From Oscillospiraceae bacterium (GTDB taxonomy: Bacteria; Bacillota; Clostridia; Oscillospirales; Oscillospiraceae), in the NCBI GenBank assembly GCA_017444665.1, contig JAFSWC010000025.1, positions 1 to 43,628 of the forward strand: 43,628 nucleotides of DNA, written 5' to 3'. The position numbers and the translations under genes are program-made. The notes under the pieces were generated by a model. That model was not told where the DNA came from, made no database searches, and saw only the letters and a list, made by a program, of their open reading frames with translations. This document shows positions 15,386-30,530 of this stretch, piece by piece (positions within the stretch are counted from its first letter, which is position 1; each line of letters starts with the position of its first letter).

Positions 15386-16078
15386 TTCGCTCAGCTTGCC
15401 GGCCTCGCGGAAGGTCTCGCGCACGAGATTGGCATACGGCGCGATCTCCGCGTCCGGCGGCGGCATGACAAGCCGGAAGCGCGAGCCGCGGTGCTCCAGC
15501 CCCGTCAGCACGTCCCACAGCGCGTCGAGATTGCTGCCGTACCAGTCCTGCCATTCCATCTCCCGGCGCAGCACGGCGTAGATCCCCGCCCGGTCGCGGC
15601 AGGCGGAGAGATCAAGCGTCAGCTCGCCGGAGAGCGCCTGCAGCATCGCCTCGCAGCCCGCGGTGATTTCGCGCAGGGCGGTTTCGAAGTCGCGGGTGTA
15701 CCACGGGTCGTCGATCTCCTCGCCCGTACGGCCGGCATAGTCGAGCAGGTTTTTCACCTTGCCCTCCGGGTCGCCGCCGAAGAAGCGCCGCGTCCGGCCG
15801 ATCGTGGCCTCGTCCATGCAGACCAGCAGATCAAAGGCCTCATAGTCGTCGGGGCGGATCCTGCGCGCGGTCTTGCCCGCGCAGTCGATGCCCCGCGCCG
15901 CAAGTAGACGGCGCATCGGCGGATAGACGCCGTTGCCCTCCTCCTCGTCGCTGACGCCGGCGGAGGCGGCGAAAAAGTTCGCTTCCTCTCCCCTTTGCCG
16001 CGCCAGGTCGGAAAACACGAATTCCGCGGCGGGGCTGCGGCAGATATTGCCCCAGCAGATAAAAAGCACATTTATCAT
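15383..16078 (-). CDS. Low-molecular-weight protein tyrosine phosphatase fused to a barstar-like domain
   Basis: 231 residues in one uninterrupted frame. Residues 1-148 are an LMW-PTP: P-loop C8-WGNIC-R14-S and the general-acid motif DDPWYTRDF (Asp124). Residues from about 152 match barstar, the barnase inhibitor: LTLDLSACRDRAGIYAVLRR and WYGSNLDALWDVLTG, keeping the two Asp (185, 189) that correspond to barstar Asp35 and Asp39. There is almost no linker. The first codons (MINVL) come from the integrated element, because the attachment core lies inside the P-loop codons. The backbone version of the N-terminus (MTKIL) is stranded at 30530. Only a weak AAAGGG site precedes this ATG, so expression probably changed on insertion. 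Confidence 0.88.
   Translation of the reverse strand: MINVLFICWGNICRSPAAEFVFSDLARQRGEEANFFAASAGVSDEEEGNGVYPPMRRLLAARGIDCAGKTARRIRPDDYEAFDLLVCMDEATIGRTRRFFGGDPEGKVKNLLDYAGRTGEEIDDPWYTRDFETALREITAGCEAMLQALSGELTLDLSACRDRAGIYAVLRREMEWQDWYGSNLDALWDVLTGLEHRGSRFRLVMPPPDAEIAPYANLVRETFREAGKLSE
16040..16063 (+). other. attL core (24-bp direct repeat)
   Basis: Begins GCAGATATTGCCCCAGC and ends AGATAAA. On the minus strand it encodes FICWGNIC of the phosphatase P-loop. Sequence to the left is backbone, to the right is element. Confidence 0.85.
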
Positions 16079-16180
16079 ATATTTATAACCCTTTATAAGT
16101 ATTTATTTCAAATTTTAAGAACTTTTTGCAAACATTGATTTTTTATAAATCTACGAAAAACTACGTTTTTTCACTGCAAT

Positions 16181-16198
16181 TGGTGTAAAAATGGTGTA
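16181..16198 (+). repeat. Left pair of TGGTGTA repeats (candidate integrase arm sites)
   Basis: TGGTGTA twice with an 11-bp period, preceded by CACTGC, between attL and the integrase gene. The same arrangement, also after CACTGC, occurs at 30417-30434. Tn916-type integrases have an N-terminal domain that binds direct repeats of this kind inside the ends; that these are the sites is inference. The rest of 16064-16207 is A+T-rich with no gene. Confidence 0.55.
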
Positions 16199-16207
16199 CG
16201 ATTTTTC

Positions 16208-17377
16208 TTATCCGATACGGGTCAATGCACTGTATTTCTGGAACGACCTTTCAGCCGCATCATAGTCCATATGGGTATAGATGCGCAGGGTCGTTTCAAC
16301 ATCGGAATGGCCCATCAGATACTGCAGTTCCTTCACAGGCATCCCTGCCCTGGCAAGTTTCGTGCAGAAAGTGTGGCGCAAAACATGCGGCGTAACGACA
16401 AGCTGTTCGCAATGCTCTGCGTTGTACTTCTCTACGATCCGCTTGAGTGCATGCTCGAAGTGTCCGGCGACCTTCGGTTTCATGTCCTTGTCAAGGAACA
16501 GGAAACCGCTCTTTCCGTCAACGGCAACCTCGATCTTGGGCTTCGGCCGGTTCCGCAACACCCGCTTGAGTGCATTCAGCACCTCGTCGCTCATGGGGAT
16601 CGTGCGCTTCCCTCTCTCTGTTTTCGGCTTCTGCAGATAGTACTCGCAGTGCTTCGTCCGCACAAGCTGACGTTCCACATGGATGCATCGGCGGGAAAAA
16701 TCCAGATCCGAAACGGTAAGGCCGCAAAGCTCGCTGATTCGCATCCCGGTCCCAAGCAAAATGATAACCGGGTCATAATAGCGGGCGCGGCAGAGGTCGG
16801 TCTGAAGGTATTCCAGGAAAGCCATTTCCTGTGCTTCCGTCAAAGGTTTGCGCTCGACCGTGTCATCCGGAACAACTTTGGTCAACGGAAAAGAAAACGG
16901 GTTCTTGCCGAGAATTTCTTCTTCCACCGCCATATCAAACGCAGGCTTCACGACGCCGCGGATACTCTGGATCGTGCTGTAGCGTCTGCCCCCGCAATTG
17001 AGCCTGATAAACCACTCCTTGGCATCCGAGGTTTTAATCGTCCTGATCTGTCGGTAGGAAAAGTCTTCCCCCTTCAGGACGCCTAGGACGAAATCATAGC
17101 TTAAGCGTGTGTTGTAACGCATTCCCTGCTTAAGGCCAAGGTATTTCTCTACCAGTGCCAATACCGTGATCTCGCCGGCACAGTAATCAAGTCCCTTGTC
17201 GAAGACGTTTCTTTGGATTTGGATCTCTTTTTCACGCAGCTCAAGAAGCGTCTTTGCATAGATATACTTCCGTTTGCCTTTTATGTCGGTGTATCGGTAC
17301 TGGTACCGGCCGTCTGGACGCTGGCTCTCGCCGTCCTTTAATACGATTCCTTTGTTGTCTTTGCGCTTTTCTGACAT
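16208..17377 (-). CDS. Tyrosine-type integrase, Tn916 Int family
   Basis: 389 residues. N-terminal arm-binding domain (KRKDNKGIVLKDGESQRPDGRYQYRYTD), SAM-like core-binding domain (about 70-175) and catalytic domain. Catalytic residues visible: Arg in GTGMRISELCG, HVLRHTF (His-x-x-Arg), GHSDVETT (His), and the nucleophile Tyr in LRIYTHMD near residue 369. It would integrate and excise the element between the 24-bp cores. Strong AAGGAGG 5 nt before the ATG and its own promoter. Full length, so probably active. Confidence 0.95.
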   Translation of the reverse strand: MSEKRKDNKGIVLKDGESQRPDGRYQYRYTDIKGKRKYIYAKTLLELREKEIQIQRNVFDKGLDYCAGEITVLALVEKYLGLKQGMRYNTRLSYDFVLGVLKGEDFSYRQIRTIKTSDAKEWFIRLNCGGRRYSTIQSIRGVVKPAFDMAVEEEILGKNPFSFPLTKVVPDDTVERKPLTEAQEMAFLEYLQTDLCRARYYDPVIILLGTGMRISELCGLTVSDLDFSRRCIHVERQLVRTKHCEYYLQKPKTERGKRTIPMSDEVLNALKRVLRNRPKPKIEVAVDGKSGFLFLDKDMKPKVAGHFEHALKRIVEKYNAEHCEQLVVTPHVLRHTFCTKLARAGMPVKELQYLMGHSDVETTLRIYTHMDYDAAERSFQKYSALTRIG

Positions 17378-17422
17378 AAAAACCTCCTTCTTCTTCGAAA
17401 AGCGCTTGATATGACGGTAACG

Positions 17423-17451
17423 AGTATATCATACTTTAGCGCTCGTGGAAA
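17423..17451 (-). promoter_or_regulatory. Candidate promoter of the integrase gene
   Basis: Minus strand: TTTCCA, 17-bp spacer, TATACT, in the 86-bp gap between xis and int. AAGCGCTTG palindromes lie nearby (17400-17408, also 17714-17722). Confidence 0.5.
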
Positions 17452-17463
17452 GAGATAGGTGTT

Positions 17464-17649
17464 TTATACGGAATAACTTTTTTCGAGGAACGCCTCGAAA
17501 GCCTTTCGTTTAATCAGCCGCTTGCTCCCGACCCATAATACAAACGGGCAGTTTTTATCGTCGCTGATTTCCCGCAGCCGATTGATCCCGATGTTGCTGA
17601 ACGCAGCCGCTTCCTCCAAAGTAAGAAACGTTAACTCGGCGCTCTTCAA
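17464..17649 (-). CDS. Xis-like excisionase
   Basis: 61 residues resembling Tn916 Xis: a winged-helix start TLEEAAAFSNIGINRLREI and the C-terminal SKRLIKRKAFEAFLE, which matches the RIQIKRKQFE segment of Tn916 Xis as I remember it. Such proteins bend attachment-site DNA and favour excision. The only available start is TTG at 17649, with no clear Shine-Dalgarno sequence and lying against the base of the upstream terminator hairpin. Translation may therefore depend on read-through or RNA folding. Located directly upstream of int. Confidence 0.75.
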   Translation of the reverse strand: MKSAELTFLTLEEAAAFSNIGINRLREISDDKNCPFVLWVGSKRLIKRKAFEAFLEKSYSV

Positions 17650-17651
17650 AA

Positions 17652-17703
17652 CAACAAGAGGACGTCCGGTCGGTTTTCTATCCGTCCGGTCGTCCTCTTG
17701 TTG
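17652..17703 (-). terminator. Terminator between the cargo operon and xis
   Basis: Outer 12-bp stem CAACAAGAGGAC/GTCCTCTTGTTG with a partly paired interior, leading into TTTT on the minus strand. It would stop the six-gene cargo transcript just before xis. Confidence 0.7.
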
Positions 17704-17713
17704 TCTCTCTGTT

Positions 17714-17730
17714 AAGCGCTTGCGGGCACT
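17714..17730 (+). repeat. Left copy of a 17-bp repeat bracketing the cargo
   Basis: AAGCGCTTGCGGGCACT, matching 30398-30414 at 16 of 17 bases in the same orientation. The cargo genes lie between the copies; int and xis lie outside. Confidence 0.6.
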
Positions 17731-17735
17731 ACTTT

Positions 17736-18788
17736 CTATGGTTTTTCTCTTTTTCCTGTCGCTGCGCTCAAAGAAGCTGTTTCGATTATTTTCAGAACGT
17801 TCACGGCGTCTGTCGGATCAATCAACTGCCTGACGCCGCAGCAGAGGACCTCATAGACATTGTCATAAAATCTCCCGTAGTTGCCTTGTTCGGTTTCGAT
17901 TTTTTCTGTCTTTACCAGACCGTCCTCGACTCTTGACAGGGTTCCGTACTGCTCCGGCCGATCGCTCCCCCAGTCCGCACTTCCCGGTCGTTCCCACCGC
18001 ATTAACGCCTCTTCCTGCGGGTCCATCCCGTACTTCACAAAACTTCCGTTCCTGCCATAAACCACGTAATGAGGCGCCGGATTCAGCGCAACTTCTGATG
18101 CAGAAAGAACAGCCTTGGTCTTTTCATAGTATAGGATCACTTCAAAAGCGTCAAACCCGGTCGACTCCGCACGTTCTTTTCGAAAATCCGCATAGATCTC
18201 ATCGGGCATCCCAAACAGGCAATAGGCCTGATCGATCAGGTGTACGCCGAGGTCATAAAGAATATTAACGCCTCTGCCGCCTTTTGCCTTCCACGCTCTG
18301 TTGCTGCCCCCCGAAACGAAGCGATCGTAACGCGCGTAGTATTCCAGAATTTCGCCCAGGATTCCGTCCGCAGCAAGTCTTTGAACCGTAAGATAATCTC
18401 CGTCAAATCTGCGGTTTTGGAAAGGGCTGTAGAACACTCCCTTCTTTTTCGCAAGGGCAAGCAGTTCCTGCGCTTCCTCCGCCGTCGCTGTGACAGGCTT
18501 TTCGACGACCACATTTTTCCCGGCAAGGATCGCTTCTTTTGCCATCGGAAAATGTAAGGGATTGGGCGTGCAGATGACCACCAGGTCGATGTCCGCGCCC
18601 AACAGATCTTCAAACTCTCTCACGCTCTCCGTTCCGGGATATGCCTCTTTTGCACGTCCCGCGTTTCGCTCGAGGATCTTTCTCAGCCGGAAATGCGGAT
18701 TGCTGCTGATAAAAGGTGTATGGAATAATTGCGCCGACATCCCGAAACCGGCCACTCCGACCTGAATGATTCTGTCCTTTTCCGGCAT
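17736..18788 (-). CDS. Gfo/Idh/MocA-family oxidoreductase (1 of 3)
   Basis: 350 residues. Rossmann NAD(P)-binding start VGVAGFGMSAQLFHTPF, the conserved VVVEKPVTAT (catalytic Lys) and the D-x-x-x-H active-site motif in ILYDLGVHLIDQAYCLFG. The FHxPFI form of the N-terminus is typical of the IolW/YvaA-like inositol and glycoside dehydrogenase branch. It would oxidise or reduce a sugar or cyclitol hydroxyl. Last gene of the leftward cargo operon, 99 bp after the M81 gene; AAAGGAG precedes the ATG and the operon terminator follows. Confidence 0.9.
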   Translation of the reverse strand: MPEKDRIIQVGVAGFGMSAQLFHTPFISSNPHFRLRKILERNAGRAKEAYPGTESVREFEDLLGADIDLVVICTPNPLHFPMAKEAILAGKNVVVEKPVTATAEEAQELLALAKKKGVFYSPFQNRRFDGDYLTVQRLAADGILGEILEYYARYDRFVSGGSNRAWKAKGGRGVNILYDLGVHLIDQAYCLFGMPDEIYADFRKERAESTGFDAFEVILYYEKTKAVLSASEVALNPAPHYVVYGRNGSFVKYGMDPQEEALMRWERPGSADWGSDRPEQYGTLSRVEDGLVKTEKIETEQGNYGRFYDNVYEVLCCGVRQLIDPTDAVNVLKIIETASLSAATGKREKP

Positions 18789-18887
18789 CTTTTCAACTCC
18801 TTTATAGATAAGAGCATTCTTATCTTTTTGTCCCTTGCGCTGCTCTATGTCAGCGCTAGGCAGTGTGGTTCGGTCTGGCGTTTCCCG

Positions 18888-20345
18888 TCACCACAGCGTG
18901 CTCTTCGCGTCATAAGGAAAATCGTCCTCAAACGGATACAGCGGCCTGCGCTGATTCCGGTAAAGAAACTTGCCGATCGTGAGCATGGCGTTGCCCTCGG
19001 TCAAGGCGATATAGCTGTCATCGGCGATGGCAGAGAGTCCCGGGAAAAGATAGCCCAGCTTTACAACGATTACATGATAATCGTGATAGGAAACGCCGTA
19101 ATCAATTAAATCCTGTTCGCCGGTGAATGAACAGCGCACTGAGTTGACAATGACCGTAATGCCTCCCGTGCGCAGTACGACGCCGTCTGCGCGTCCCTGC
19201 ACATCTCTGTGGAGGGACAGAATGCGTGCGTTTTCAAGCAGGACGCTCTGACTGTTCCGATCATGGCGGCCGCCGAGATAAAGCGTCAGCTCCGCTCCAT
19301 CGCCTGCTTCGGCGCACAGGTTCACCGCCGCCTCGTCCCAGATCCCGGCGACCAGCGTATGCTCCGCGGCCACCCGGAGCAGAAGACCAAGCATCAGCGC
19401 GTTGTCTCCCACAGCTCCCGCGGTGACATTGTCTCCGGAATCGCTGAGAAGGACTGTTTTTCCGGGGCTGGATAAGGCTTTGCGGATTGCCTCCTCCGGC
19501 GGAAGGGAATTGTCGCTCAAGCAGAACGCGTGACGCATTTCCCAGATTTCCTGCGCGTTTTGTATCAACGCGGCTTCCAGATCAGATCTGTTTTGACCTG
19601 TCCCGCTCACCACGAGGGTGGATCCGTTATGGGGACAGTCGATCCAGGACATGCCGGTAAAGTAGGAGCTGCGCCATACCCCGTCCCTTCTATCGAGTGC
19701 GTCGAGCATCTCCATAATTCTCCGGACGTGCGGCATATCCGTCGTAGCGGCTTCCCCAGGCTGCAGCATGGGGACGCGGACAAGTGTGTTCTGCGGGAGG
19801 ATATCATCCTTTGCCGCCCGGCATACAAGCTCTGCGGCGATCTGCTGGGTTTGCGCGATATCTGTGTGAGGGGCAGTTCGATAGCCGACAATAATGTTTG
19901 CGCAGCGGGCAAGCGTGTGACTCATGTTTCCGTGAAAATCCATCGCTACGGCGATGGGAATGGAAGGGCCTACTCTCTCTCGTATGGCGGACACCAGAAA
20001 GGCTTCTCCGCTGCCGATAAATTCGACCTGCATGGAGCCGTGAAGATAAAGCCACACGCCATCCACGTTGCCGTCCAGAGGAACATCGGCGATAATCCGC
20101 TCGGCAATGCTTCGATAACTGGCTAATTCCAGCACGCCCGCCGCCACGCAGAGTGACTCTGCATAGATGGAAGGAAGGACCTCGCAGCCGGCGTTTGTTA
20201 TGGCAGAAACCGCATCCGGAAAGTGCAGGAGCAACTCGGAAGGAGAAAGGATTCGAAAATCCGCTTCCGTAACGGGGACGGGATTGGAAGTGTTGCTCTC
20301 CAGATGAAACCCTGCCATTAAGATTCGTTTCCTTTGGTTTTTCAT
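18888..20345 (-). CDS. M81-family metallohydrolase (MlrC-like)
   Basis: 485 residues across the DUF1485 and MlrC C-terminal domains. Zinc-site motifs are visible: AMDFHGNMS, GYRTAPHTD and LLSDSGDNVTAGAVGDN. The family is named after a microcystin-degrading peptidase, but most members sit in sugar or small-molecule clusters with unknown substrates. Inside an importer-dehydrogenase operon it probably cleaves an amide or related bond in the transported compound or an intermediate; that is inference. AAGGAGG lies 6 nt before the ATG; 44 bp after the second permease gene. Confidence 0.9.
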   Translation of the reverse strand: MKNQRKRILMAGFHLESNTSNPVPVTEADFRILSPSELLLHFPDAVSAITNAGCEVLPSIYAESLCVAAGVLELASYRSIAERIIADVPLDGNVDGVWLYLHGSMQVEFIGSGEAFLVSAIRERVGPSIPIAVAMDFHGNMSHTLARCANIIVGYRTAPHTDIAQTQQIAAELVCRAAKDDILPQNTLVRVPMLQPGEAATTDMPHVRRIMEMLDALDRRDGVWRSSYFTGMSWIDCPHNGSTLVVSGTGQNRSDLEAALIQNAQEIWEMRHAFCLSDNSLPPEEAIRKALSSPGKTVLLSDSGDNVTAGAVGDNALMLGLLLRVAAEHTLVAGIWDEAAVNLCAEAGDGAELTLYLGGRHDRNSQSVLLENARILSLHRDVQGRADGVVLRTGGITVIVNSVRCSFTGEQDLIDYGVSYHDYHVIVVKLGYLFPGLSAIADDSYIALTEGNAMLTIGKFLYRNQRRPLYPFEDDFPYDAKSTLW

Positions 20346-20389
20346 TCTGCCCTCCTTGTTATGCTAAGAAATGCTGCCCTATGCAGGAT

Positions 20390-21232
20390 TTATCCTTTCA
20401 ATCCGGTCGTGGCAATACCTTCTACGAGGTACTTTTGGAAGCTTACAAACAGAATGCAGGCCGGGACGACGGACAACGTCGCCATCGCAAACATGGCGCC
20501 GAAATCGGACGAAGAGGAGGGATCGCTGAACAGCTTCAGCGCAAGACTTGCGGTATACAACTCCGGCTTATTCAGATAGAGGAAGGGACCTAGGAAATCT
20601 TCCCAGCGCCAAATAAACGAGAAAATCGCCGATGTGCAGATTACCGGCACGCACAGCGGAAGCATGATGTGCCAAAAAACACCGAAGCGGCTGCAGCCGT
20701 CGATCATGGCGGCTTCGTCCAATTCTTTGGGAATGCTGCGCATAAACTGCACGTCCATATAAATAAAGAACGCCTGTCCGCAGAAGAAAGGAACTATCAA
20801 CGGCAGATAGGTGCCTGTCCAGCCGAGTTTGGTGAACAGCAGAAATTGCGGCACCATGATTACCTGGAACGGCAGCATCAACGTTACCATCATACAGGCA
20901 AACCAAAAGTCGGAACCGCGGAATTTGATACGGGCAAAACCATAGGCAATCAACACGCTGGAGAACACGGCACCGATAGTGGAGAGCCCGGCCACCAGGA
21001 GAGAATTTCGGAAGAAAGTCCCGAAGCTGTGGCCGGCAAAGCCCTTCCATCCGTTAATAAAGTTCTGAACCGTCCACTGGGTCGGCAGCAGCTTGTCTGC
21101 TTCGCGCATGACAGTGCTGGAGACCTTAAAGGAACTGAACAGCATCCACAGCAGAGGATAGAGCATGATGACAGCGACACATACGCAGGTAAAGTGGAAA
21201 AGAGCCTTTCTGGCTCGTTTTTGCTGGGTCAT
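20390..21232 (-). CDS. ABC sugar transporter permease, MalG type
   Basis: 280 residues with six membrane segments. The ATPase-contact EAA loop reads ELDEAAMIDGCSRFGVFWHIMLPL. It pairs with the MalF-type permease upstream, whose stop is separated from this start by one base, so the two are translationally coupled. The pair would carry a sugar or glycoside delivered by the binding protein encoded at 23588-24964. No ATPase gene is present in the island. Confidence 0.93.
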   Translation of the reverse strand: MTQQKRARKALFHFTCVCVAVIMLYPLLWMLFSSFKVSSTVMREADKLLPTQWTVQNFINGWKGFAGHSFGTFFRNSLLVAGLSTIGAVFSSVLIAYGFARIKFRGSDFWFACMMVTLMLPFQVIMVPQFLLFTKLGWTGTYLPLIVPFFCGQAFFIYMDVQFMRSIPKELDEAAMIDGCSRFGVFWHIMLPLCVPVICTSAIFSFIWRWEDFLGPFLYLNKPELYTASLALKLFSDPSSSSDFGAMFAMATLSVVPACILFVSFQKYLVEGIATTGLKG

Positions 21233-21233
21233 C

Positions 21234-22148
21234 TTATTTTTCCTCCTTTACGTCAGTTTCATAATAGACCCAGTATCTCTGCGATCTGAAAAGGACGATC
21301 GTAATGGTCGCAATAAGAACCAAAAGAACCCAGGCCTGCGCGCAGCCATAGCCCATCTTGCTGTACTTGAATGACGTTTCGTACATATAGACGGCGGAGA
21401 ACTTCGTCAATCCCATCGGTTCGCCGCGTGTAATAAGCAGACTTTGGGTAAAGCAAGTCAGCGCCAGAATAATCTGCATCACGAGATTGAAGAAGATCGT
21501 GGGCGTCAGCAGCGGAAGCGTAATCCGGAAGAAACGCTGGATCGGGCTTGCTCCGTCGATGCTAGCCGCCTCATAATAGGTCGGCGGGATCTGTTTAAGC
21601 CCGGAAAGGAAGTTCAGCATGGACGAGCCATACTGCCAGACAGACAGAATGATAAGCGTCCATATAGCCGTGTCTGGGCTTCCTATCCAGCTTTTTTTTA
21701 AATCTGCGCCGAAGATGGAGTTGAAAAGGGTATTCAACATGCCGTCTCCCGAAAAGACCTGACGCCAGACGATCGCGATCGCGACGCTCCCCCCGATGAT
21801 CGAAGGGAGGTAAAACGCCGCGCGGTAGAAAGCGGTGACTCTGTTCGTCTTATAGAGAAGCATGGCAATCGCCAGAGAAAAAAGCAGCTTCAATGGCACA
21901 GAGAAAACGACGTACTTGCTGGTAACCTTCAGGGCAAGCCAAAACTTGGTGTCGCTAATCAGGGTCTGATAGTTTTTCAGCCCTGCAAATTTGGGAGGCG
22001 TAATAACATTATAGTTGCAGAAAGAATAGACGAGGGACGATAGAATCGGGATGATGGTAAATGCAATGAACCCGATGCAAAACAGGCCGATAAACAGATA
22101 GCCGTCTCGCGTGTTCTGCAGCGTTTTTTTAGACCAGCGTTTGTTCAT
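21234..22148 (-). CDS. ABC sugar transporter permease, MalF type
   Basis: 304 residues from MNKRWSKK, chosen over an upstream in-frame Met because AAGGAGGG sits 5-6 nt before it. Six membrane segments; EAA motif YYEAASIDGASPIQRFFRITLPLL. Partner of the MalG-type permease in a carbohydrate uptake (CUT1) importer. Confidence 0.93.
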   Translation of the reverse strand: MNKRWSKKTLQNTRDGYLFIGLFCIGFIAFTIIPILSSLVYSFCNYNVITPPKFAGLKNYQTLISDTKFWLALKVTSKYVVFSVPLKLLFSLAIAMLLYKTNRVTAFYRAAFYLPSIIGGSVAIAIVWRQVFSGDGMLNTLFNSIFGADLKKSWIGSPDTAIWTLIILSVWQYGSSMLNFLSGLKQIPPTYYEAASIDGASPIQRFFRITLPLLTPTIFFNLVMQIILALTCFTQSLLITRGEPMGLTKFSAVYMYETSFKYSKMGYGCAQAWVLLVLIATITIVLFRSQRYWVYYETDVKEEK

Positions 22149-22238
22149 GTTTCCCTCCTTTCTTGCGACCCCGGCCCAGCGCTCACTCAGCCGCAAGGTC
22201 TCCAATAGAACCAGTGGTTTTGCAGGCAAAAAGATAAC

Positions 22239-23423
22239 TCAGGATTTCGATGCCGTCACATCCATGTCGATCTCGCGGGCGACCTTGGTCCGGGAGGCAT
22301 TGGTGCGCTTTTCGTTCAGCATCGACAGATACCGATCCTTATCGACCGGAAGCTCTGCCCAGTTATCCGTCCAGGCGGAGGTGTTGATGGCATTGATAAG
22401 CTGCACGGCATTCAATCCTTCTTCGCCGGGGGCGATCAACGGCTCACCGTGACGGATAGCAGCGACAAAATTGCGTATAATCTTTTTGTGCCCGTCCCAA
22501 TAAGGAACCACCTCGTCGGGCACATATTCAAACATCTCGGCTGCCGGCTCGCCGAATCCTCCTGTGAAAGTTGCGTTGAACTCCCGTTCGGATGGAGAGA
22601 ACTTCCAGTATCGGAAGCGGAATTCGTTCTCGGCAGTCTCTTCAATGATGACCTTTCCCTTGTCGGCTGTCAGCTCGATCCGGTTCGTACCGCAAGGTTC
22701 GCCGGTGGTGGTGATAAACTGCGCGGTCATGCCGTTTTTGTATTCGGCATAAATTGTGGCGGAGTCCTCCACATCAATGGTGTGGTACCGGCCGTACTGG
22801 CAGAAAGCACGCACTCTGACGGGCAGGCCGCACACCAGCTGCCACATGTCGATGTTGTGAGGGCACTGGTTGATGAGAACGCCGCCGCCCTCTCCGTCCC
22901 AGGTGGCGCGCCAGTCACTAGAATCATAATAGCTTTGAGAGCGATACCAGTTCGTAATGATCCAGGTAAAGCGTCTCAGTTCCCCCAGTTCGCCAGAGGA
23001 AACCATTTCTCGCAGCTTTAGGTAATAAGGGTTTGTTCTTTGATTGTACATCAAGCTGAACACCTTACCGCTTTTTTTCGCGGCGGCGTTCATTTCCTCC
23101 ACTTGGGCCGCATAGACGCCGGCAGGCTTTTCGCAGATGACGTGAAGCCCTCTTTCAAAAGCATAGATCGAATAATCGGTGTGTAGATAATGCGGAACGG
23201 CAACAAGAACCGCATCCACCAGCCCACTATCAATCAGATCCTCAGCACGTTCAAAACGGGCGACCTTGTCGCCAAACTGAGCTTCCGCCCAGGCAAGGCG
23301 ACCGGGTTTAATATCGCACACAGCCGTCAGGACCATGCCATCTATATCGCCGGCGAAAATCGATGAAGCGTGACGGGATCCCATAACACCGATCCCGATA
23401 AGTCCCATCCTGATATCCTGCAT
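22239..23423 (-). CDS. Gfo/Idh/MocA-family oxidoreductase (2 of 3)
   Basis: 394 residues. Dinucleotide loop GLIGIGVMGSRHA, ICEKPAGV with the conserved Lys, and the catalytic-site motif GGGVLINQCPHNIDMWQLV, which places it in the NQxxHxxD branch that includes glucoside and keto-sugar dehydrogenases. It sits between the binding-protein and permease genes, behind a terminator hairpin that would lower its level relative to the binding protein. AAAAGGAGAGG before the ATG. Active-site residues are intact. Confidence 0.92.
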   Translation of the reverse strand: MQDIRMGLIGIGVMGSRHASSIFAGDIDGMVLTAVCDIKPGRLAWAEAQFGDKVARFERAEDLIDSGLVDAVLVAVPHYLHTDYSIYAFERGLHVICEKPAGVYAAQVEEMNAAAKKSGKVFSLMYNQRTNPYYLKLREMVSSGELGELRRFTWIITNWYRSQSYYDSSDWRATWDGEGGGVLINQCPHNIDMWQLVCGLPVRVRAFCQYGRYHTIDVEDSATIYAEYKNGMTAQFITTTGEPCGTNRIELTADKGKVIIEETAENEFRFRYWKFSPSEREFNATFTGGFGEPAAEMFEYVPDEVVPYWDGHKKIIRNFVAAIRHGEPLIAPGEEGLNAVQLINAINTSAWTDNWAELPVDKDRYLSMLNEKRTNASRTKVAREIDMDVTASKS

Positions 23424-23510
23424 GTTTATCCTCTCCTTTTCAGTTGATTACGTGGCCTCCTGTGTTTTGAGTAACACAAAGTCTCGGCTTCCTGCCGCAC
23501 TCCGGATGAT

Positions 23511-23562
23511 ATAAAAGGAAGAGCCGGTAAAGAAGGGATTCCGGCTCTTTATCGGCTCTTCC
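23511..23562 (-). terminator. Intra-operon terminator/attenuator after the binding-protein gene
   Basis: Minus-strand stem GGAAGAGCCG/CGGCTCTTCC (an alternative register pairs GAGCCGG/CCGGCTC) followed by TTTTAT. It probably allows partial read-through, giving much more binding protein than the downstream proteins, as in other CUT1 operons. Confidence 0.7.
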
Positions 23563-23587
23563 GCGTTACGCGGTAATATTGGCTTTT

Positions 23588-24964
23588 TTAGCCGGCATAC
23601 TCTGCGAGGATCGCATTCGCCTGCGCGACAAACTGCGCAGCGGCGTCTTCTGCGGTCATGCTGCCGAACAGAACGGCGGCGCGCATGTCTTTGTCCACAT
23701 CAAAGATCTGCTGGCCGCAGCCGGGCTCAAGCGCTGGGGCAGGCGCTCCATGCTCAGAAATATAGGTCACATAGTCCGCAATACGGACCGAGATGGGAGC
23801 AAGATCATCGGAGAGGGCTTCGCATACCTTGGCGTTCATGGAAACACCGCGCTCCATCAAGAGAACCTTGTTGGCGTCAATATCGTTGATGATGTAGCTC
23901 AGGAACGCCGCGGAGGCCTCCTTGTCGGCGTCAGAGCCGATATTGCCCAGACCCGTCAGCTGAGAGGGCTGAATGTTGCAGGGCTGGCGGACACAATCTG
24001 CGAAGATCGGGGTAGCGCACAGGTCAAGGCTGATATCATCGCCGGCTGCTGCTTGGAGACCGACACCCATGTTGCTGGTGAAGAAGCTGTTCCATGTCTT
24101 GCCGGTCGTGATGGGATCGACCTCAGCGCCGGTCACGGCAGCATACTCGGCCGGATCCTGAACCCAATCCTGCTGTCCGAGCTCGGCCAGCAGCTCGTAG
24201 CATTTCACTGCGACGGTCTCGTCAAATCCGAGGGACGAATAATCGTCGGTGTAGAACTCATAGCCGTATCCGCGGACAACACTGCGCAGCAGTTCGGCAT
24301 AGGAAATGCTCCAGCAAAGGCTGGTCTGAACACCGGTCTGCTCGTAAATGGTCTTGCCAAGCTCAATGAACTCGTCCCAGGTGGGTTCCATGCTGATGCT
24401 CAGGCCGAGACTATCAAGCAACGTGGCGTTGTAGAACATGGAGCGGGCGTTGTTGCCCATGCTCAAGGCATAGAGACTTCCATCGACGGTACCGGCCGCG
24501 ATCGTGTTGGGGTCGCAGTCCGAGATGTCAAGGATACCGGCTTCCACATAGGGATCCAGAGGAATAAGCAGGCCGGCCTCCGCCCATTCGGGAACCCAGT
24601 ACCAGTCAGTCTGAAGAACATTGGGCAGCGCGCCGCCGGCAGAACGGGTTTTTACCAGATCCTCGTAAGAACCGCCGTCGGTAAATTCGGGATTGATTGT
24701 AACATTTTGATTGGCAGCCATGAACATTTCAACGACCTTGGTCGTGCGCTCGGCACGTACCTGATTGCCCCACCAGGTATAGCTCAACGTGACGTTGGGA
24801 ACCTCTGCGGGAGTGGTTTCGGAGGCAGGAGCCTCAGCGGCTGGAGCTTCAGCGGCGGGGGCGGGAGCGGAGGCATTGCTGCTGGAGCCGCAGCCTGATA
24901 AGACGGCAACCAGCATTGTCAGAACCAGCAACAATGCAAGAGTTCTCTTCTTCATCGTAATCAT
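23588..24964 (-). CDS. ABC transporter sugar-binding lipoprotein
   Basis: 458 residues from MITMKKRT, chosen because AAAAGGAGG sits 4-5 nt upstream. Lipoprotein signal peptide with lipobox LSGC, an Ala/Pro/Glu-rich tether, then an extracellular solute-binding protein family 1 fold: VTLSYTWWGNQVRAERTTKV, PNVLQTDWYWVPEW, GSLYALSMGNNARSMFYN. Many exposed Trp and Tyr residues suit a carbohydrate ligand. First gene of the leftward cargo operon. Confidence 0.93.
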   Translation of the reverse strand: MITMKKRTLALLLVLTMLVAVLSGCGSSSNASAPAPAAEAPAAEAPASETTPAEVPNVTLSYTWWGNQVRAERTTKVVEMFMAANQNVTINPEFTDGGSYEDLVKTRSAGGALPNVLQTDWYWVPEWAEAGLLIPLDPYVEAGILDISDCDPNTIAAGTVDGSLYALSMGNNARSMFYNATLLDSLGLSISMEPTWDEFIELGKTIYEQTGVQTSLCWSISYAELLRSVVRGYGYEFYTDDYSSLGFDETVAVKCYELLAELGQQDWVQDPAEYAAVTGAEVDPITTGKTWNSFFTSNMGVGLQAAAGDDISLDLCATPIFADCVRQPCNIQPSQLTGLGNIGSDADKEASAAFLSYIINDIDANKVLLMERGVSMNAKVCEALSDDLAPISVRIADYVTYISEHGAPAPALEPGCGQQIFDVDKDMRAAVLFGSMTAEDAAAQFVAQANAILAEYAG

Positions 24965-25065
24965 AGTCCTCCTTTTTTCTTTGTTTTGTTTCTTGTTATT
25001 TCGCTTCAAAGGCCTCTGTAAAGCGCCGGAGTGTACTGAACGATCTCTGAAGCAAATCTATTTTT

Positions 25066-25128: not shown

Positions 25129-25156
25129 ATTTCATTTCTTGTGAAAATGCAACACC

Positions 25157-25185: not shown

Positions 25186-25263
25186 CAAAATATACCGCTT
25201 TTCCGAAAAAAAAGAGTCTTTTTTGAGCAGATTTCGTCACTTGTCTCAGGGAGGGGCAGCCGC

Positions 25264-26247
25264 ATGAAAGACATGAAAAAAACAAGCCCATCATTCCGTC
25301 AGGCAAATTACGCCGCTTCGGAAGATGTCGCCATGCAGCCTGTCCTTTACAAAAACCAGGTGATTTATGAGCAGCAGTTCTATCAGAGCAAAAGCCCGGA
25401 TACGCTTTGGTATCTTGCATACGATACGCAGCCGCTCCAACCGGACTTTCCGCTGCACATCCACTCGTTCACTGAGATCTACATGCTGATTGCCGGAGAA
25501 GTGGACTATCTTGTCAACACGGAGATCTATCATCTTCAGCCCGGTGACATCATGATTATCCCGATCAACTGCCCACATCAGACAATCGTTCACCAGCCGG
25601 GCTTGCCGTATGAACGCATCAATCTGTGGATCAAGCCGGAAGCGTTGGAAAAGCTGAGCAGCAACGCGCCGGATCTTTCCAGATGCCTGGATATGGACGT
25701 GATAAGTCCCAACCATCTCATCCCCTGCGCAACACGTGAGAACGAGGTGATATGTACCGCCATCGAGCAGCTGGCCATCCTGCAGAACGAAAAAAAGTTT
25801 GCCGGTGACATACTGGCTGAGGGCTTCCTGCGCCAGATTGTAGTCTATGCATATGAATACTGTCGAACGGACATGAGCCGGCCCCCCCAGGATCGCGTGT
25901 TGAGGAACCATCTGATCACATCCGCTATTGACGAGATCTCCCGTCATTTGGCCGAGCCGATCACGCTCGAGTCGATTGCGTCGTCGCTGTTCGTCAGTAA
26001 GTACCATCTTGCCCACACCTTCAAGCAGTACATGGGTGTTTCCGTGCATCAATTTGTTATCAACCGTCGCCTTGCCAAAGCCAGAGAGATGGTAAACGCC
26101 GGCTTCCCTCTAAAAAATGTCAGTGCGGAGTGTGGCTTCAGCAACTATTCCAATTTCTACAAGATTTTTCGCACCCATGTCGGGATGAGCCCCACAGAAT
26201 ATCGCGCTGCGGGAAAAAAGCATGCGGAAAAAGGAAAAGCGCCATAA
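25264..26247 (+). CDS. Cupin-AraC transcriptional regulator
   Basis: 327 residues. An N-terminal cupin sensor (about 50-130: PDFPLHIHSFTEIYMLIAGEVDYLV, LQPGDIMIIPINCPHQ) should bind the inducing sugar. The C-terminal AraC DNA-binding domain (about 215-315) has two helix-turn-helices: TLESIASSLFVSKYHLAHTFKQYMG and FPLKNVSAECGFSNYSNFYKIFRTHVGMSPTEYR. It is divergent from the transporter operon and is the only regulator in the island, so it is the likely activator acting at the three matching operators. GGGAGGGG before the ATG. Confidence 0.92.
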   Translation: MKDMKKTSPSFRQANYAASEDVAMQPVLYKNQVIYEQQFYQSKSPDTLWYLAYDTQPLQPDFPLHIHSFTEIYMLIAGEVDYLVNTEIYHLQPGDIMIIPINCPHQTIVHQPGLPYERINLWIKPEALEKLSSNAPDLSRCLDMDVISPNHLIPCATRENEVICTAIEQLAILQNEKKFAGDILAEGFLRQIVVYAYEYCRTDMSRPPQDRVLRNHLITSAIDEISRHLAEPITLESIASSLFVSKYHLAHTFKQYMGVSVHQFVINRRLAKAREMVNAGFPLKNVSAECGFSNYSNFYKIFRTHVGMSPTEYRAAGKKHAEKGKAP

Positions 26248-26249
26248 AT

Positions 26250-26297
26250 AAATCGGGATATCGTCTTGCCGCGATATCCCGATTTGTTTTTCTTTTT
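26250..26297. terminator. Terminator between convergent genes
   Basis: 14-bp stem AAATCGGGATATCG and complement with an 8-nt loop, then T-rich sequence; separates the regulator from the convergent dehydrogenase gene. Confidence 0.88.
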
Positions 26298-26334
26298 GTC
26301 TGCCTATGCAGGGGAATCCTTCGGATCAAAAGAA

Positions 26335-27420
26335 TCAGGAGTCGTCCGCGCCGAAGTCCGAACGAAAGGCGAGGGCAGAGCCCTTGAGAAGCGGAAGGGA
26401 AATCGGTTGCCCCTGTTGTGCGGAGGCATAAATCGCTAGGACCAGCTCCAGCGCTCGCCGGCCGGCCTGTCCGTCGATTGCGGGGGATCTGTCCTCCGCA
26501 ACCGCCTGCAGCATGTCGGCGTAGACGAGATCATGGCCGCTCCCGTATACATTTTCGCTTTCCTGGCTGTTTTCCCGGCAGACAGCGTCAGCATCCGTTT
26601 CGCCCCGGACGTGCCAGGTCTCCATCCGATTCGTGGCCAGGCCGCCGACACAGACGGTGCCTTCCGTGCCGAACAAGCAGAGGCGCTCTTCAAAATCATC
26701 GTCGTAACAGTTTACGGTCCCTTCGATCATTCCGTATCCGCCGTTGGCAAAGCGGACGATGGCCAGACCAAGGTCTTCCCCTTCAATATACGGGTGCCTC
26801 TGCCGGGCGGTAACAGCTGTAACGTCGATCACGTCGTTTCCCATCATCCAGCGAAGCAGATCGATGCCGTGAATGCACTGATTCATCAGACATCCACCAT
26901 CATCCGCCCAGGTGCCCCGCCAAGCAGCCTGGCGATAGTATGCCTCGCCACGGCTCCAGCGAACCTGTATGGTTCCATAGAGCATTCTGCCCAACGCCTG
27001 GTCCTCAACTGCTTGGTGCATTTTCTGGATCGCTTTATTAAAGCGGTTTTGATGGCACACGCCGAGCTTCACCTTTTTGAGCGCTGCGCGGCGAATCATT
27101 TCATCCGCATCCTCCAACGACATGGCCATCGGCTTTTCGACAAGGACATTTGCGCCGCTGTCGATACAGTCCAGCGCGATCTGTGCGTGCGCTCCCGAAC
27201 TCGTCGCCACCGCCACCAATTCCGGAGCACACTCCGAAAGCAGGCGGCGGTGGTCGGTGTATGCCCGCACCTTGGAATGATCCAACTCGAGACGTTTCAT
27301 GGCCAGCCGTAATTCTTCCGGATCCCGACAACAAACGGCGACGATCTCAAGCCCGTTGCTTTTTGCCGCGCGAATGTGGTTCGGAGCGATCCTGCCCAGT
27401 CCGATCAGTGCATAACGCAT
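26335..27420 (-). CDS. Gfo/Idh/MocA-family oxidoreductase (3 of 3)
   Basis: 361 residues. NAD(P) loop ALIGLGRIAPNHIRAA, NVLVEKPMAMS (catalytic Lys) and GGCLMNQCIHGIDLLRWMMG (active-site His and Asp). Intact and in the same NQxxHxxD branch as the enzyme at 22239, but clearly a different paralogue. It is transcribed alone, divergent from the two TIM-barrel genes; its -35 box overlaps the AraC operator between them. GGGGGG lies 8 nt before the ATG. Confidence 0.92.
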   Translation of the reverse strand: MRYALIGLGRIAPNHIRAAKSNGLEIVAVCCRDPEELRLAMKRLELDHSKVRAYTDHRRLLSECAPELVAVATSSGAHAQIALDCIDSGANVLVEKPMAMSLEDADEMIRRAALKKVKLGVCHQNRFNKAIQKMHQAVEDQALGRMLYGTIQVRWSRGEAYYRQAAWRGTWADDGGCLMNQCIHGIDLLRWMMGNDVIDVTAVTARQRHPYIEGEDLGLAIVRFANGGYGMIEGTVNCYDDDFEERLCLFGTEGTVCVGGLATNRMETWHVRGETDADAVCRENSQESENVYGSGHDLVYADMLQAVAEDRSPAIDGQAGRRALELVLAIYASAQQGQPISLPLLKGSALAFRSDFGADDS

Positions 27421-27444
27421 CGTCTTTTCCCCCCTATATTTAGT

Positions 27445-27473
27445 ATCGTAATGGAAGCTAACAAGTTTGGCAA
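27445..27473 (-). promoter_or_regulatory. Promoter of the third dehydrogenase gene
   Basis: Minus strand: TTGCCA, 17-bp spacer, TACGAT. The -35 lies inside the operator used by the divergent promoter, so the regulator may repress or compete here while activating the other side. Confidence 0.55.
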
Positions 27474-27486
27474 TTTTATTCGCAAG
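27460..27486 (+). promoter_or_regulatory. Candidate AraC operator 2
   Basis: AACAAG, 15 bp beginning TTTGGCAA, CGCAAG, then exactly 8 bp to the -35 box of the rightward promoter. Confidence 0.6.
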
Positions 27487-27494
27487 TTCTTACA

Positions 27495-27523
27495 TTGAGT
27501 TTGAAGACTCCCTTTGTTAAGAT
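27495..27523 (+). promoter_or_regulatory. Promoter of the two TIM-barrel genes
   Basis: TTGAGT, 17-bp spacer, TAAGAT, about 90 bp before the first start codon. Confidence 0.65.
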
Positions 27524-27614
27524 AAATTGTAAGAGTTGTCCGTCAGAAGCCAGTACCGCACAGGCAGCCCTGCGGAACAACCTGCGGCCGCCTGCCAAAA
27601 GAAGGAGAGCGTGT

Positions 27615-28427: not shown

Positions 28428-28441
28428 AAGGAGGAAGGATC

Positions 28442-29266: not shown

Positions 29267-29288
29267 TAACTCCTGTTCGCATACAAAC

Positions 29289-29329
29289 GCGATCTGCTGT
29301 GAGGTGTTTTCGCAGCAGATCGCTTTTTT
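29289..29329 (+). terminator. Terminator of the TIM-barrel pair
   Basis: Perfect 11-bp stem GCGATCTGCTG and complement, then T6. Confidence 0.9.
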
Positions 29330-29353
29330 GAAGAAAACGCCCAAGAAAGGGGC

Positions 29354-30136
29354 TCACAGGTACTTTCTGAACAAAGGTAGGCTTTTTTTGATGCCTGCAT
29401 CGATGTTCATATCGAAGCATTCCAGTGTGATACGGTCGTCATAGCCGATGCTTTTCAATGCCGAGAAGAACGGGCCGTAATCAAATCCGTCGCCGAGCGC
29501 CGGGTATCCCCGCGCCTCGTCCACTGCCGAAATATGGGCATGCCGAATCCAGCCTCCGGCATCAACAATGTTGGACATCGGTTCGTTTTCATAGTACATG
29601 TGATACAAATCACACAGCGCGAACAGATGAGGATCTGCCACATCTTTCGCCAATTGGATTGCATCCGGCACAATTTTGATGGGATTGCTGAGGCCTTCCC
29701 TGCCGCACACAGGCTCGATGACGACAGAAATGTCAAAATGGTCGGCATATTCCATCATCAGCCGCATGAACGACACCAACTCCTGATGCGCCTGCTCCGG
29801 GCTGTACCCATCGGGGACAGACCTAGCACGGGCACTGCCAAATACCATCATATCCGCACCCATCCGGCACGCACGGGGAAAGGCTCGGGAGAAATACTCT
29901 CTTTGCTGCGCCTCATCCGCCGCGGGACCGATAAGCGGGATGCTTCCATCCAATGGAAAAAGAAGATTAAATACTTCGATTTTGATCGGGGCTGCATCGA
30001 TCCTTCGGGCAAAGCGTTCAAAGTCCTCATCTGGCAGCTCCATCAAACGGCAGAGATTCATTTCGATGAAATCCAATTGATGTTGAATGACCACCTCAGC
30101 CTGAGCGGCATCCCGTACATTACAGCCGATTCGCAT
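29354..30136 (-). CDS. Sugar isomerase/epimerase-like TIM-barrel protein (third)
   Basis: 260 residues, more distant from the other two. Metal ligands appear intact: VVIEPVCGREGLSN (Glu), FALCDLYHMYYEN (Asp), RHAHISAVDEARGYP (His) and ITLECFDMN (Glu). This resembles the IolI/tagatose-3-epimerase-like branch. It is transcribed alone from an operator-bearing promoter at the right end of the island. GGAGG before the ATG. Confidence 0.9.
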   Translation of the reverse strand: MRIGCNVRDAAQAEVVIQHQLDFIEMNLCRLMELPDEDFERFARRIDAAPIKIEVFNLLFPLDGSIPLIGPAADEAQQREYFSRAFPRACRMGADMMVFGSARARSVPDGYSPEQAHQELVSFMRLMMEYADHFDISVVIEPVCGREGLSNPIKIVPDAIQLAKDVADPHLFALCDLYHMYYENEPMSNIVDAGGWIRHAHISAVDEARGYPALGDGFDYGPFFSALKSIGYDDRITLECFDMNIDAGIKKSLPLFRKYL

Positions 30137-30170
30137 GATTTATCCTCCTTTTTTTCTTCATTTTTTCTTC

Positions 30171-30199
30171 ATCATAGCATTTGAAAGAAAACGGAACAA
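30171..30199 (-). promoter_or_regulatory. Promoter of the third TIM-barrel gene
   Basis: Minus strand: TTGTTC, 17-bp spacer, TATGAT; the AraC-type operator ends 8 bp upstream of the -35. Confidence 0.65.
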
Positions 30200-30207
30200 G
30201 TTAGTAT

Positions 30208-30234
30208 CTTGTGGAAAAGATTTCAAAACTTGTG
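30208..30234 (-). promoter_or_regulatory. Candidate AraC operator 3
   Basis: In promoter direction CACAAG, 15 bp beginning TTTTGAAA, CACAAG. The shared TTTCAAAACTTGYG (plus strand) is also present in operator 1. Confidence 0.6.
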
Positions 30235-30343
30235 CTCTGGTTGCGGAGAAAGCTCTGTCCTTGAGTTCAAAGACACCGCTTTTCTCCGAATCATTTCTGC
30301 CGAGATGTTATGCGAAGGACGGTCTCTTGCTCATCTACCCAAG

Positions 30344-30386
30344 AAAAAAGGACCGGCAAGAGAAGACTCCTGCCTGTCCTTTTTTT
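30344..30386. terminator. Bidirectional terminator near the right end of the element
   Basis: Stem AAAAGGAC-C-GGCA with TGCC-T-GTCCTTTT around a loop of about 12 nt, flanked by A6 and T7 runs. On the minus strand it would block transcription entering from the displaced backbone promoter. The rest of 30235-30485 holds the repeats listed next and no gene. Confidence 0.7.
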
Positions 30387-30397
30387 CTTGTCATACC

Positions 30398-30414
30398 AAG
30401 CGTTTGCGGGCACT
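30398..30414 (+). repeat. Right copy of the 17-bp repeat bracketing the cargo
   Basis: AAGCGTTTGCGGGCACT, 16 of 17 bases as at 17714-17730. It is followed immediately by the TGGTGTA arm repeats. Confidence 0.6.
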
Positions 30415-30416
30415 GC

Positions 30417-30434
30417 TGGTGTAAAATTGGTGTA
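30417..30434 (+). repeat. Right pair of TGGTGTA repeats (candidate integrase arm sites)
   Basis: TGGTGTA twice with an 11-bp period, preceded by CACTGC, matching the left pair at 16181-16198. Confidence 0.55.
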
Positions 30435-30485
30435 AAACGTGTTTTTGAAGGTGAAAAAATCCAGTGTTTGCAATGATTTCAGGGT

Positions 30486-30530
30486 TTATGTGCAGATATT
30501 GCCCCAGCAGATAAACAAGATCTTTGTCAT
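30486..30530 (-). pseudogene. Displaced 5' stub of the phosphatase gene
   Basis: Encodes MTKILFICWGNICT then stop. The first 13 residues are a perfect LMW-PTP start; the frame ends as soon as it enters the element. AGGGGAG precedes the ATG, a better ribosome binding site than the one now serving the intact gene at 16078. This is the original backbone N-terminus, separated from its body by about 14.4 kb. Confidence 0.8.
30492..30515 (+). other. attR core (24-bp direct repeat)
   Basis: Identical to 16040-16063 over 24 bp, then diverging. To its right lie the original start codon and promoter of the phosphatase gene. Confidence 0.85.

Follow-up and report, generated by a model that had tools for sequence, protein, structure and literature searches.

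A site-specific integrating element with a Tn916-type integrase very probably targets the codons for the P-loop in a host LMW phosphatase gene, bringing its own first codons, in the 43,628-nucleotide stretch of Oscillospiraceae DNA analysed here (the window). The sequence itself shows the position of the element between two core copies, the first codons that it carries, and the presence of related integrases at the same core in many other genomes.

Ends, empty site and gene content

Features of the locus, in window coordinates, are as follows.

15383..16078, minus strand: target gene, LMW protein tyrosine phosphatase with C-terminal Barstar (LMWPc 9.4e-30, Barstar 2.3e-13)
16040..16063, minus strand: attL core, codons FICWGNIC including Cys8 (exact 24-bp repeat)
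16064..16207, minus strand: left arm of the element, supplying ATG and INVL codons (comparison with congener G181, arm scans)
16178..16198, plus strand: direct repeat pair AATTGGTGTA / AAATGGTGTA, spacing 11, candidate integrase arm-binding sites
16208..17377, minus strand: tyrosine integrase of Tn916 type, reading toward the phosphatase (PF00589 1.6e-40, PF02920 3.7e-22)
17464..17649, minus strand: excisionase-like protein, 61 aa (phrog_16129 excisionase 5.7e-17)
17736..25009, minus strand: Gfo/Idh oxidoreductase, M81/MlrC-type protein, two ABC permeases, second Gfo/Idh, extracellular solute-binding protein (cargo)
25264..26247, plus strand: AraC-type regulator (cargo)
26335..27420, minus strand: third Gfo/Idh oxidoreductase (cargo)
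29354..30136, minus strand: xylose-isomerase-like TIM barrel (cargo; PF01261 1.3e-27)
30344..30385, minus strand: strong hairpin followed by a T run (-31.3 kcal/mol, z -5.3; inverted repeat)
30417..30437, plus strand: direct repeat pair TGGTGTAAAA, spacing 11, motif shared with the left end
30492..30515, minus strand: attR core (exact 24-bp repeat)
30516..30620, minus strand: stranded native 5' end, first base of start codon at 30530

The initial annotation rested on a perfect 24-bp direct repeat at 16040-16063 and 30492-30515. The repeat is present, is exact, and coincides with the maximal exact match; a looser match extends over 41 bp at 85% identity because the element has its own imperfect copy of the phosphatase 5' end. 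The chance expected for a 24-bp repeat in 43.6 kb is ~3e-6 (arithmetic on uniform bases), and a chance duplication is ruled out by the exact 24 bp together with the empty site described below. The DNA between the repeats (14,452 bp) is GC-poor, GC content falling from ~63% outside to ~52% inside the element.

On the minus strand the repeat encodes FICWGNIC, assigned in the initial annotation to the catalytic loop of an LMW phosphatase. The assignment agrees with the LMWPc match of the gene, and Cys8 is presumably the catalytic residue, as in the motif of the family. The left copy reads MINVLFICWGNICRSPAAEF... and continues into the open 231-aa gene (15383-16078), codons 1-13 of which (MINVL plus FICWGNIC) are made of element arm and att core; the element was correctly said to give the ATG and INVL codons and to leave the phosphatase frame open. 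In a conservation scan of the gene the core window ranked 8 of 424, and the top-ranked windows overlap the core. Few stretches of the gene are as conserved as the P-loop codons.

An uninterrupted phosphatase gene, to be sought in relatives according to the initial annotation, was found at the same locus in congener G181, with synteny on both sides. Window positions 7402-16080 align to G181 at 85% identity, 30492-30565 at 87%, and 30808-39150 in pieces at 82-90%, the two flanks being adjacent in G181. The native 5' form of the gene at this empty site is MTKILFICWGNICRSP. Junction and comparison with G181 both show an element origin for the start codon, for the codons next to it and for the DNA before them, as had been proposed; the phosphatase promoter would be replaced as well. 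In the element arm the promoter scan gave no match of sigma-70 type.

At the right end the native start (30530) soon meets a stop, as the annotation had it, the minus strand reading MTKILFICWGNICT-stop. The sequence TTGCGT-17-TATGAT was noticed by eye upstream of the stranded start, and also before the empty-site gene in G181; the promoter scan did not return it at the native 5' end. The hairpin at 30344..30385 is a minus-strand terminator-like site, although the scan total of 2 is close to the shuffle mean of 1.3, and would stop transcription entering from the stranded native 5' end. In divergent elements the letters shared by the two ends shrink to about TGYCAYGG. Strand exchange may tolerate mismatch, since the ends of the element in G039 differ even within these letters (CAT/CAC); strand exchange by Tn916 does tolerate mismatch.

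The integrase has both the Tn916 N-terminal DNA-binding domain and the phage integrase catalytic domain. Residues R213, H331, R334, H357 and Y367, which we take to be catalytic from the tyrosine recombinase motif, are invariant across 22 aligned sequences. The best solved relatives are the 'Int protein' entries 6emy/6emz/6en0, presumably Tn1549 Int, and 1b69/1tn9, presumably the Tn916 N-terminal domain. The excisionase-like protein also matched TIGR01764 at 5.1e-5, under the cut-off of that model. The cargo looks like a sugar-catabolism cluster, the TIM-barrel protein giving sub-cut-off matches to sugar epimerase/isomerase models. No relaxase was found in ORFs of the element scanned against Pfam, and ten ORFs each against NCBIfam and PHROGs, small ORFs being covered in part; mobilization in trans would thus be needed. 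A prophage was ruled out, as the ten ORFs gave no phage structural or lysis genes in PHROGs. Integrase and excisionase matched there, permease and AraC protein hit families of unknown function or regulation, and ~40 N-terminal residues of the solute-binding protein gave an Rz-like match (5e-4).

Recurrence at the phosphatase core

The further elements that the annotation suggested looking for, with a related integrase at the phosphatase core, were found in number. Among 130 distinct pooled integrase loci, the phosphatase lies downstream on the same strand in 84, and neither phosphatase nor core is found downstream of 34; the pool is biased to this clade, 80 loci having been fetched using an alignment of phosphatase-adjacent integrases. 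Of 91 cores found by pattern, 90 have an in-frame start. Integrase and phosphatase adjoin on one strand in 20 of 101 genomes of the genus of the window (20 of the 81 with a phosphatase match) and in 11 of 150 genomes of the family, and adjoin in 61 of 80 named loci. In viral-contig loci (n=80) they adjoin in two (L254 and L259) and are 2.3 kb apart in L266. None of the integrase relatives in the phage (16 records) and plasmid (39 records) collections reaches 60% identity. Hosts of elements at the phosphatase core are mostly Clostridia. Recurrence across genus, named and pooled loci rules out a single insertion event.

Both ends were located for the element of the window, for 8 other single elements and for a tandem pair in G005; many other elements sit on contigs too short for the search. 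For thirteen further elements the stretches searched did not contain the other end: G061 (~57 kb past the integrase), G072 and G036:C12 (to contig ends), and, searched by patterns, G247, G195, G172, G236, G215, G190, Blautia XA-2221, Parablautia muri, Faecalicatena faecalis and R. torques. Arrays and remnants of such elements occur. A second integrase lies past a core junction in G005, G256, G257 and G260. Eight genomes have a core junction with no phosphatase match downstream: in 3 the phosphatase is farther along the contig, after a second integrase, in 2 it is on another contig, and 3 have no match. The junction in G214 has no in-frame start and that in G118 carries a frameshift at the core; therefore the phosphatase gene is not always kept. 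G246 has 6.8 kb of extra DNA upstream of a phosphatase whose arm appears native; no integrase match was found in these 6.8 kb.

Relaxases were found in relatives at the same site: MobA_MobL (1.3e-89) in G070, Relaxase (5.8e-14) in the second element of G005, and Mob_Pre (1.5e-18) in G104. G101 has a Mob_Pre match only, below cut-off, and G118 has Rep and FtsK types; no relaxase was among the three ORFs scanned in G116. In some relatives the relaxases are accompanied by CHC2 zinc finger and VapE-like proteins.

Relatedness of the 5' arm tracks the integrase, not the phosphatase body. Over 74 loci, arm identity correlates with integrase identity (rho 0.40; 0/500 permutations as high), body with integrase identity at rho 0.14 (15/500), and arm with body identity at rho 0.06 (97/500). 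G070 and a Blautia share a common element, 96-97% identical over 8.3 kb, next to phosphatase bodies 47.5% identical. In listed pairs with integrases 97-98% identical, bodies are 48-92% identical.

Mechanism and alternative readings

The Tn916-type integrase would act on a circular form, whose attP mimics the start of the phosphatase gene, and recombine it with attB, the P-loop codons in the chromosome. Wide host range would follow, since these codons are highly conserved. In the integrated state the phosphatase would be read from the start codon of the element. Since the gene then follows int immediately on one strand, its transcription probably starts from element DNA. The native start would end up at the other side of the element, shut off by an early stop codon and a terminator, until Int and Xis excised the element and so made the native gene whole again.

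Tentatively, the picture may be extended to a widespread integrase clade for which the catalytic-loop codons of a signalling phosphatase are a shared landing site in Clostridia and some neighbours. Each arrival would swap control region and N-terminus, making the 5' end a mosaic of arms, with expression set by the last arrival and flipping on excision.

Integration may, somewhat doubtfully, act as a switch, the element taking over phosphatase expression through co-transcription with int and excision returning it. The two genes are co-directional, the terminator scan found no minus-strand terminator-like site between them, many arms have GGAG-like stretches before the start, and the stranded native promoter-like sequence faces the terminator-like hairpin; the same layout, however, results simply from int adjoining attP.

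It is rather unlikely that the insertion is a fossil, with integrase and cargo stuck and a new 5' end which merely let the host gene survive. The lack of a relaxase in the scanned ORFs is consistent with it, as are decayed relatives, such as that in G166, with an integrase reduced to a 66-bp piece. Yet the integrase and Xis frames are open, catalytic residues are kept, the two att cores are still identical across 24 bp, and other members of the family, 96-99.5% identical between hosts, have moved recently.

It is most improbable that the phosphatase is cargo travelling with the integrase, as their adjacency in 84 of the 130 loci might suggest, rather than a targeted host gene: the empty site of G181, with the same flanking genes, refutes this for the window, in the five listed pairs whose integrases share 99% identity or more the bodies match at only 47-61%, and near-identical elements stop near the core, beside differing bodies.

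Comparison with known systems

The initial annotation held the target to be new and 5'-end reconstitution to be known. No paper describing an LMW phosphatase as integration site was among the open-access matches listed; the passages checked of PMC2605562, PMC10763512, PMC12479173, PMC12904643 and PMC9092696 do not describe it, and the precedent for reconstitution is dusA (PMC4482086). A listing of the phosphatase target in some island catalogue is possible. As this locus indicates, an attachment site can be made of catalytic-motif codons when the element has a coding mimic. The locus also adds a common integration hotspot, one that could be overlooked in annotation since the host phosphatase gene appears intact. 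The ends of many unlabelled elements in Clostridia can be found by a direct rule, which is to look downstream of a Tn916-type integrase for the phosphatase P-loop codons. It further becomes testable whether a host tyrosine phosphatase has its expression set by mobile elements.

Replacement of a 5' end by an integrating island is described for dusA (PMC4482086). As here, dusA-specific islands and prophages have a tyrosine integrase family tied to one conserved gene, insert at its 5' end and supply a new one; semiconserved 21-bp att repeats and varied islands are a further likeness. In contrast, the target here is the LMW phosphatase, with exchange within the catalytic loop, the integrase is of Tn916 type and hosts are mostly Clostridia. 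The affected region of dusA includes a structural strand but, according to PMC4482086, no residue with a known role in binding FMN or tRNA.

Tn916/Tn1549-type elements share with this one Xis and an integrase with the Tn916 N-terminal DNA-binding domain. Tn916 sensu stricto selects its targets, AT-rich regions, with low specificity (PMC12479173), whereas one coding site is used here; no transfer genes were seen in the element of the window. Some relatives at the phosphatase core resemble integrative mobilizable elements of Firmicutes in carrying relaxases, here of MobA/MobL, VirD2 or Mob_Pre type, unlike the element of the window, in which none was found. FirmiData left elements with an integrase and no relaxase unannotated (PMC9092696). 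The skin, gin and yin elements of sporulation genes also insert within coding sequences; there the gene is restored by excision, whereas here the frame stays open while the site is occupied.

Anatomy of the element and its junctions

The 24-bp perfect direct repeat described in the initial annotation is present at 16040-16063 and 30492-30515, exact and maximal at 24 bp, and delimits an element of 14,452 bp (16040 to 30491). A looser match of 41 bp (85% identity) surrounds it, because the left copy sits in an element-borne imperfect copy of the 5' end of the gene. GC content is ~52% inside 16040-30491 and ~63% outside, and a scan of the window with ARAGORN gave no tRNA gene. The left junction opens, on the minus strand, an intact 231-aa frame, MINVLFICWGNICRSPAAEF..., and the right junction reads MTKILFICWGNICT followed by a stop, both as had been claimed. 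Profile matches identify the 231-aa product as an LMW tyrosine phosphatase (LMWPc, 9.4e-30) whose C-terminus is a Barstar domain (2.3e-13). Cys8 and Arg14 belong to what we take to be the catalytic motif CX5RS; in the window, the 24-bp repeat stops just short of the Arg codon. The Barstar fusion is featured by the phosphatase (15383-16078) and its congeners. By hand count, a single match reaches at least residue 220 in 64 of 81 matching genomes of the genus, hence the fusion looks genus-typical.

Features of the element:
16178-16198 and 30417-30437, just inside each end: TGGTGTA-type direct repeat pairs, 11-bp spacing
16208-17377, left end, reading toward the phosphatase: tyrosine integrase with Tn916-type N-terminal domain (PF00589 1.6e-40, PF02920 3.7e-22)
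upstream of the integrase: excisionase-like protein, 61 aa (phrog_16129 5.7e-17; TIGR01764 under cut-off)
30344-30385, minus strand, inside the right end: strong hairpin with a T run (-31.3 kcal/mol, z -5.3)

Among solved structures, the Int chains 6emy, 6emz and 6en0 are closest to the integrase in sequence, and the repeat pairs are, by analogy, candidate arm-binding sites. The hairpin would block transcription running in from the native 5' end that the insertion left stranded. Three Gfo/Idh oxidoreductases, an M81/MlrC-type protein, two ABC permeases, a solute-binding protein, an AraC regulator and a TIM-barrel isomerase make up the cargo, which looks like a sugar-catabolism cluster. Neither relaxase nor phage structural genes were found among the ORFs scanned. 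Unless a relaxase escaped notice by being small or divergent, this copy would count as a non-autonomous cargo island.

An uninterrupted gene, MTKILFICWGNICRSPAAEFIFSDL, resides in G181, a congener with an empty site. Identity to G181 is 85% over 7402-16080, 87% over the right junction (30492-30565), and 82-90% in pieces over the far side (30808-39150); in G181, the counterparts of both flanks adjoin each other. In G174, G226, G154, G225 and G175, the phosphatase adjoins a relative of the window gene 31699-32592; the element is absent there, and the lipoprotein gene 30772-31611 has no match. The version CWGNIC, with Trp where most relatives carry His, was found in all 8 nearest congeners examined, and the core of the element is identical to it over the full 24 bp. 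G181 and the right flank of the window share, by eye, TTGCGT-17-TATGAT before the native start, a promoter-like sequence parted from its gene by the insertion; it was absent from promoter-scan results. At L145 (G246:C9), 6.8 kb of extra DNA upstream of the phosphatase separate it from the next syntenic gene; the arm looks native, and no integrase match of this type was found in the extra DNA.

Recurrence at the phosphatase site

Many related integrases reside just upstream of the phosphatase, and the search suggested at the outset, for other elements pairing with this core, gave positive results. Comparing match positions place by place, an integrase lies directly upstream of the gene, on the same strand, in 20 of 101 genomes of the genus. 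These 20 are among the 81 genomes that match the phosphatase and among the 29 whose integrase match reaches E <= 1e-60. Compared likewise, a family sample of 150 genomes has 11 such cases, out of 25 whose integrase match reaches E <= 1e-40; 92 of the 150 match the fused protein, Barstar-only matches included. Named genomes provided at least 80 integrase loci, and in 61 of those 80 the phosphatase is directly downstream, as in [Ruminococcus] torques ATCC 27756, Blautia hansenii, Parablautia muri, Faecalicatena faecalis, and MAGs labelled Selenomonas and Veillonellaceae. The integrases of Parablautia muri and of a Gastranaerophilales-labelled match are 94% identical, and the contig of the latter may be mis-binned. 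L259 (IMGVR_UViG_2882369103_000005), from a viral collection, carries an integrase at the phosphatase site and a neighbour resembling, by eye, a MobA/MobL-type relaxase; it may be a mobilizable element, not a virus.

Pooling gave 137 loci, reduced to 130 by removing 7 that repeated an integrase start already counted. In 91 of the 130, a P-loop core follows the integrase at a distance of up to 450 bp (79 with a phosphatase match, 12 without, including L186, which terminates within the core). The pool is biased to this phosphatase-adjacent integrase clade, the 80 named loci having been retrieved with an alignment of such integrases. Five more loci have a variant core and phosphatase (84/130 with phosphatase in total), and 34 have neither. 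The in-frame start preceding the 91 cores is ATG in 89, GTG in 1, and missing in 1 (G214), and is placed 4 codons ahead of the core in 84. G118 is tallied as start-bearing, yet its frame breaks at the core.

A second core and a stranded native start were found for the window and 8 other single elements. For 13 further elements, no second core was found within the flanking stretches examined.

Other single elements with both ends found (genome; size; proteins encoded)
G104; 25.4 kb; Mob_Pre relaxase
G167; 17.9 kb
G251 (Lachnospiraceae bacterium 10-1); 16.4 kb
G039; 12.2 kb
G070; 10.5 kb; MobA/MobL relaxase, CHC2 zinc finger, VapE-like protein
G101; 9.4 kb; only a Mob_Pre match, under cut-off
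G116; 9.3 kb; no relaxase in three ORFs scanned
G118; ~7 kb; Rep- and FtsK-like proteins

In G005, a tandem pair occupies the phosphatase site, and the second element encodes a VirD2-type relaxase. The integration module is common to differing backbones. The first G005 element carries a NACHT-domain protein (L077 15142-17046; PF05729 1.4e-11), possibly a defence gene. The outer G005 junction, where 18 bp of integrase start lie beside a 68-bp arm (96% identical), resembles a decayed element. Eight genomes with a core junction and no phosphatase match downstream were traced. A second integrase has the phosphatase immediately behind it in G256 and G257, and lies 1.7 kb ahead of it in G260; these three are element arrays at one site, G260 being less clear. 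In the others, the phosphatase is on a separate contig (2) or has no match (3). Tandem arrays map at G005:C19 54848-77681 (L076, L077, L167), G256:C6, G257:C40 and G260:C21.

In G166, an arm (the element DNA between integrase and core) lies beside an open phosphatase frame, and the integrase is reduced to a 66-bp piece identical to that of the window. Among 40 phosphatase loci with no integrase match in the available stretch, 8 feature upstream similarity to an element arm (E <= 1e-4), extending to the gene start in L004 (contig edge), L009 (35 bp only), L012, L016, L023 and L102, and stopping short of it in L020 and L109. Arms can therefore outlive their elements.

Exchange of the 5' end and choice of the site

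Over 74 loci, arm identity (60 bases before the core) correlates with integrase identity (rho 0.40; 0/500 permutations as high). Identity of the phosphatase body does so more weakly (rho 0.14; 15/500), and arm and body have no detectable relation (rho 0.06; 97/500). Where arms are at least 80% identical (98 pairs), integrases have a median identity of 90% and bodies one of 56%. G070 and Blautia sp. XA-2221 have integrases 99.2% identical, arms matching at 59/60 bases, and bodies 47.5% identical; their elements share three pieces (8.3 kb in total) at 95.7-97.4%, plus 0.4 kb at 89%. G039 and G190 have 9.6 kb in common at 99.5%. The 5' end of the gene travels with the integrase, and recent transfer of elements between hosts is the simplest reading. 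That the phosphatase is itself element cargo is ruled out by near-identical elements and arms lying beside divergent bodies.

In the best-supported mechanism, attP, the site of the circular element, would act as a coding mimic of the 5' end of the gene and recombine with the P-loop codons. We infer excision, a circular form, the promoter from which the phosphatase is read once the element has integrated, an active MINVL form (with element-supplied first codons), and the regulatory or fitness effect, if any, of integration. When 424 windows of 24 nt were ranked by conservation in 47 phosphatase genes (7 with an integrase in the locus), P-loop windows came on top, the exact core window being 8th; the DPWY loop is the sole other stretch among the top twelve. 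Targeting conserved codons would make for a broad host range.

On a quick tree of 124 integrases, short-match rows and identical proteins omitted, four target labels require 20 changes, against a shuffle mean of 40.6 (0/200 shuffles as low). In a separate supported clade of 13 rows, 11 carry downstream a GGCGGCATGTA-type sequence in place of the P-loop core. For the most part, then, target choice goes with clade; finer claims are limited by the quick model, by near-copies and by several long branches. In this sister clade, GGCGGCATGTA(C/T)T follows the integrase at L036, L039, L058, L117, L127, L175, L176, L177, L182, L184 and L120; it could encode a C-terminus, GGMY-stop, and mark a second, different target, perhaps, as a guess, the 3' end of groEL.

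Relation to dusA-specific islands

The target, called new at the outset, is not the subject of any open-access article among the matches listed; 5'-end replacement is known. In the family of dusA-specific islands (PMC4482086), the closest described system, the 5' end of the gene is likewise replaced, and the authors report no known FMN- or tRNA-binding residues in the affected region. The phosphatase-site elements differ from these islands in target, in integrase type and hosts, and in that the exchange takes place within catalytic codons.
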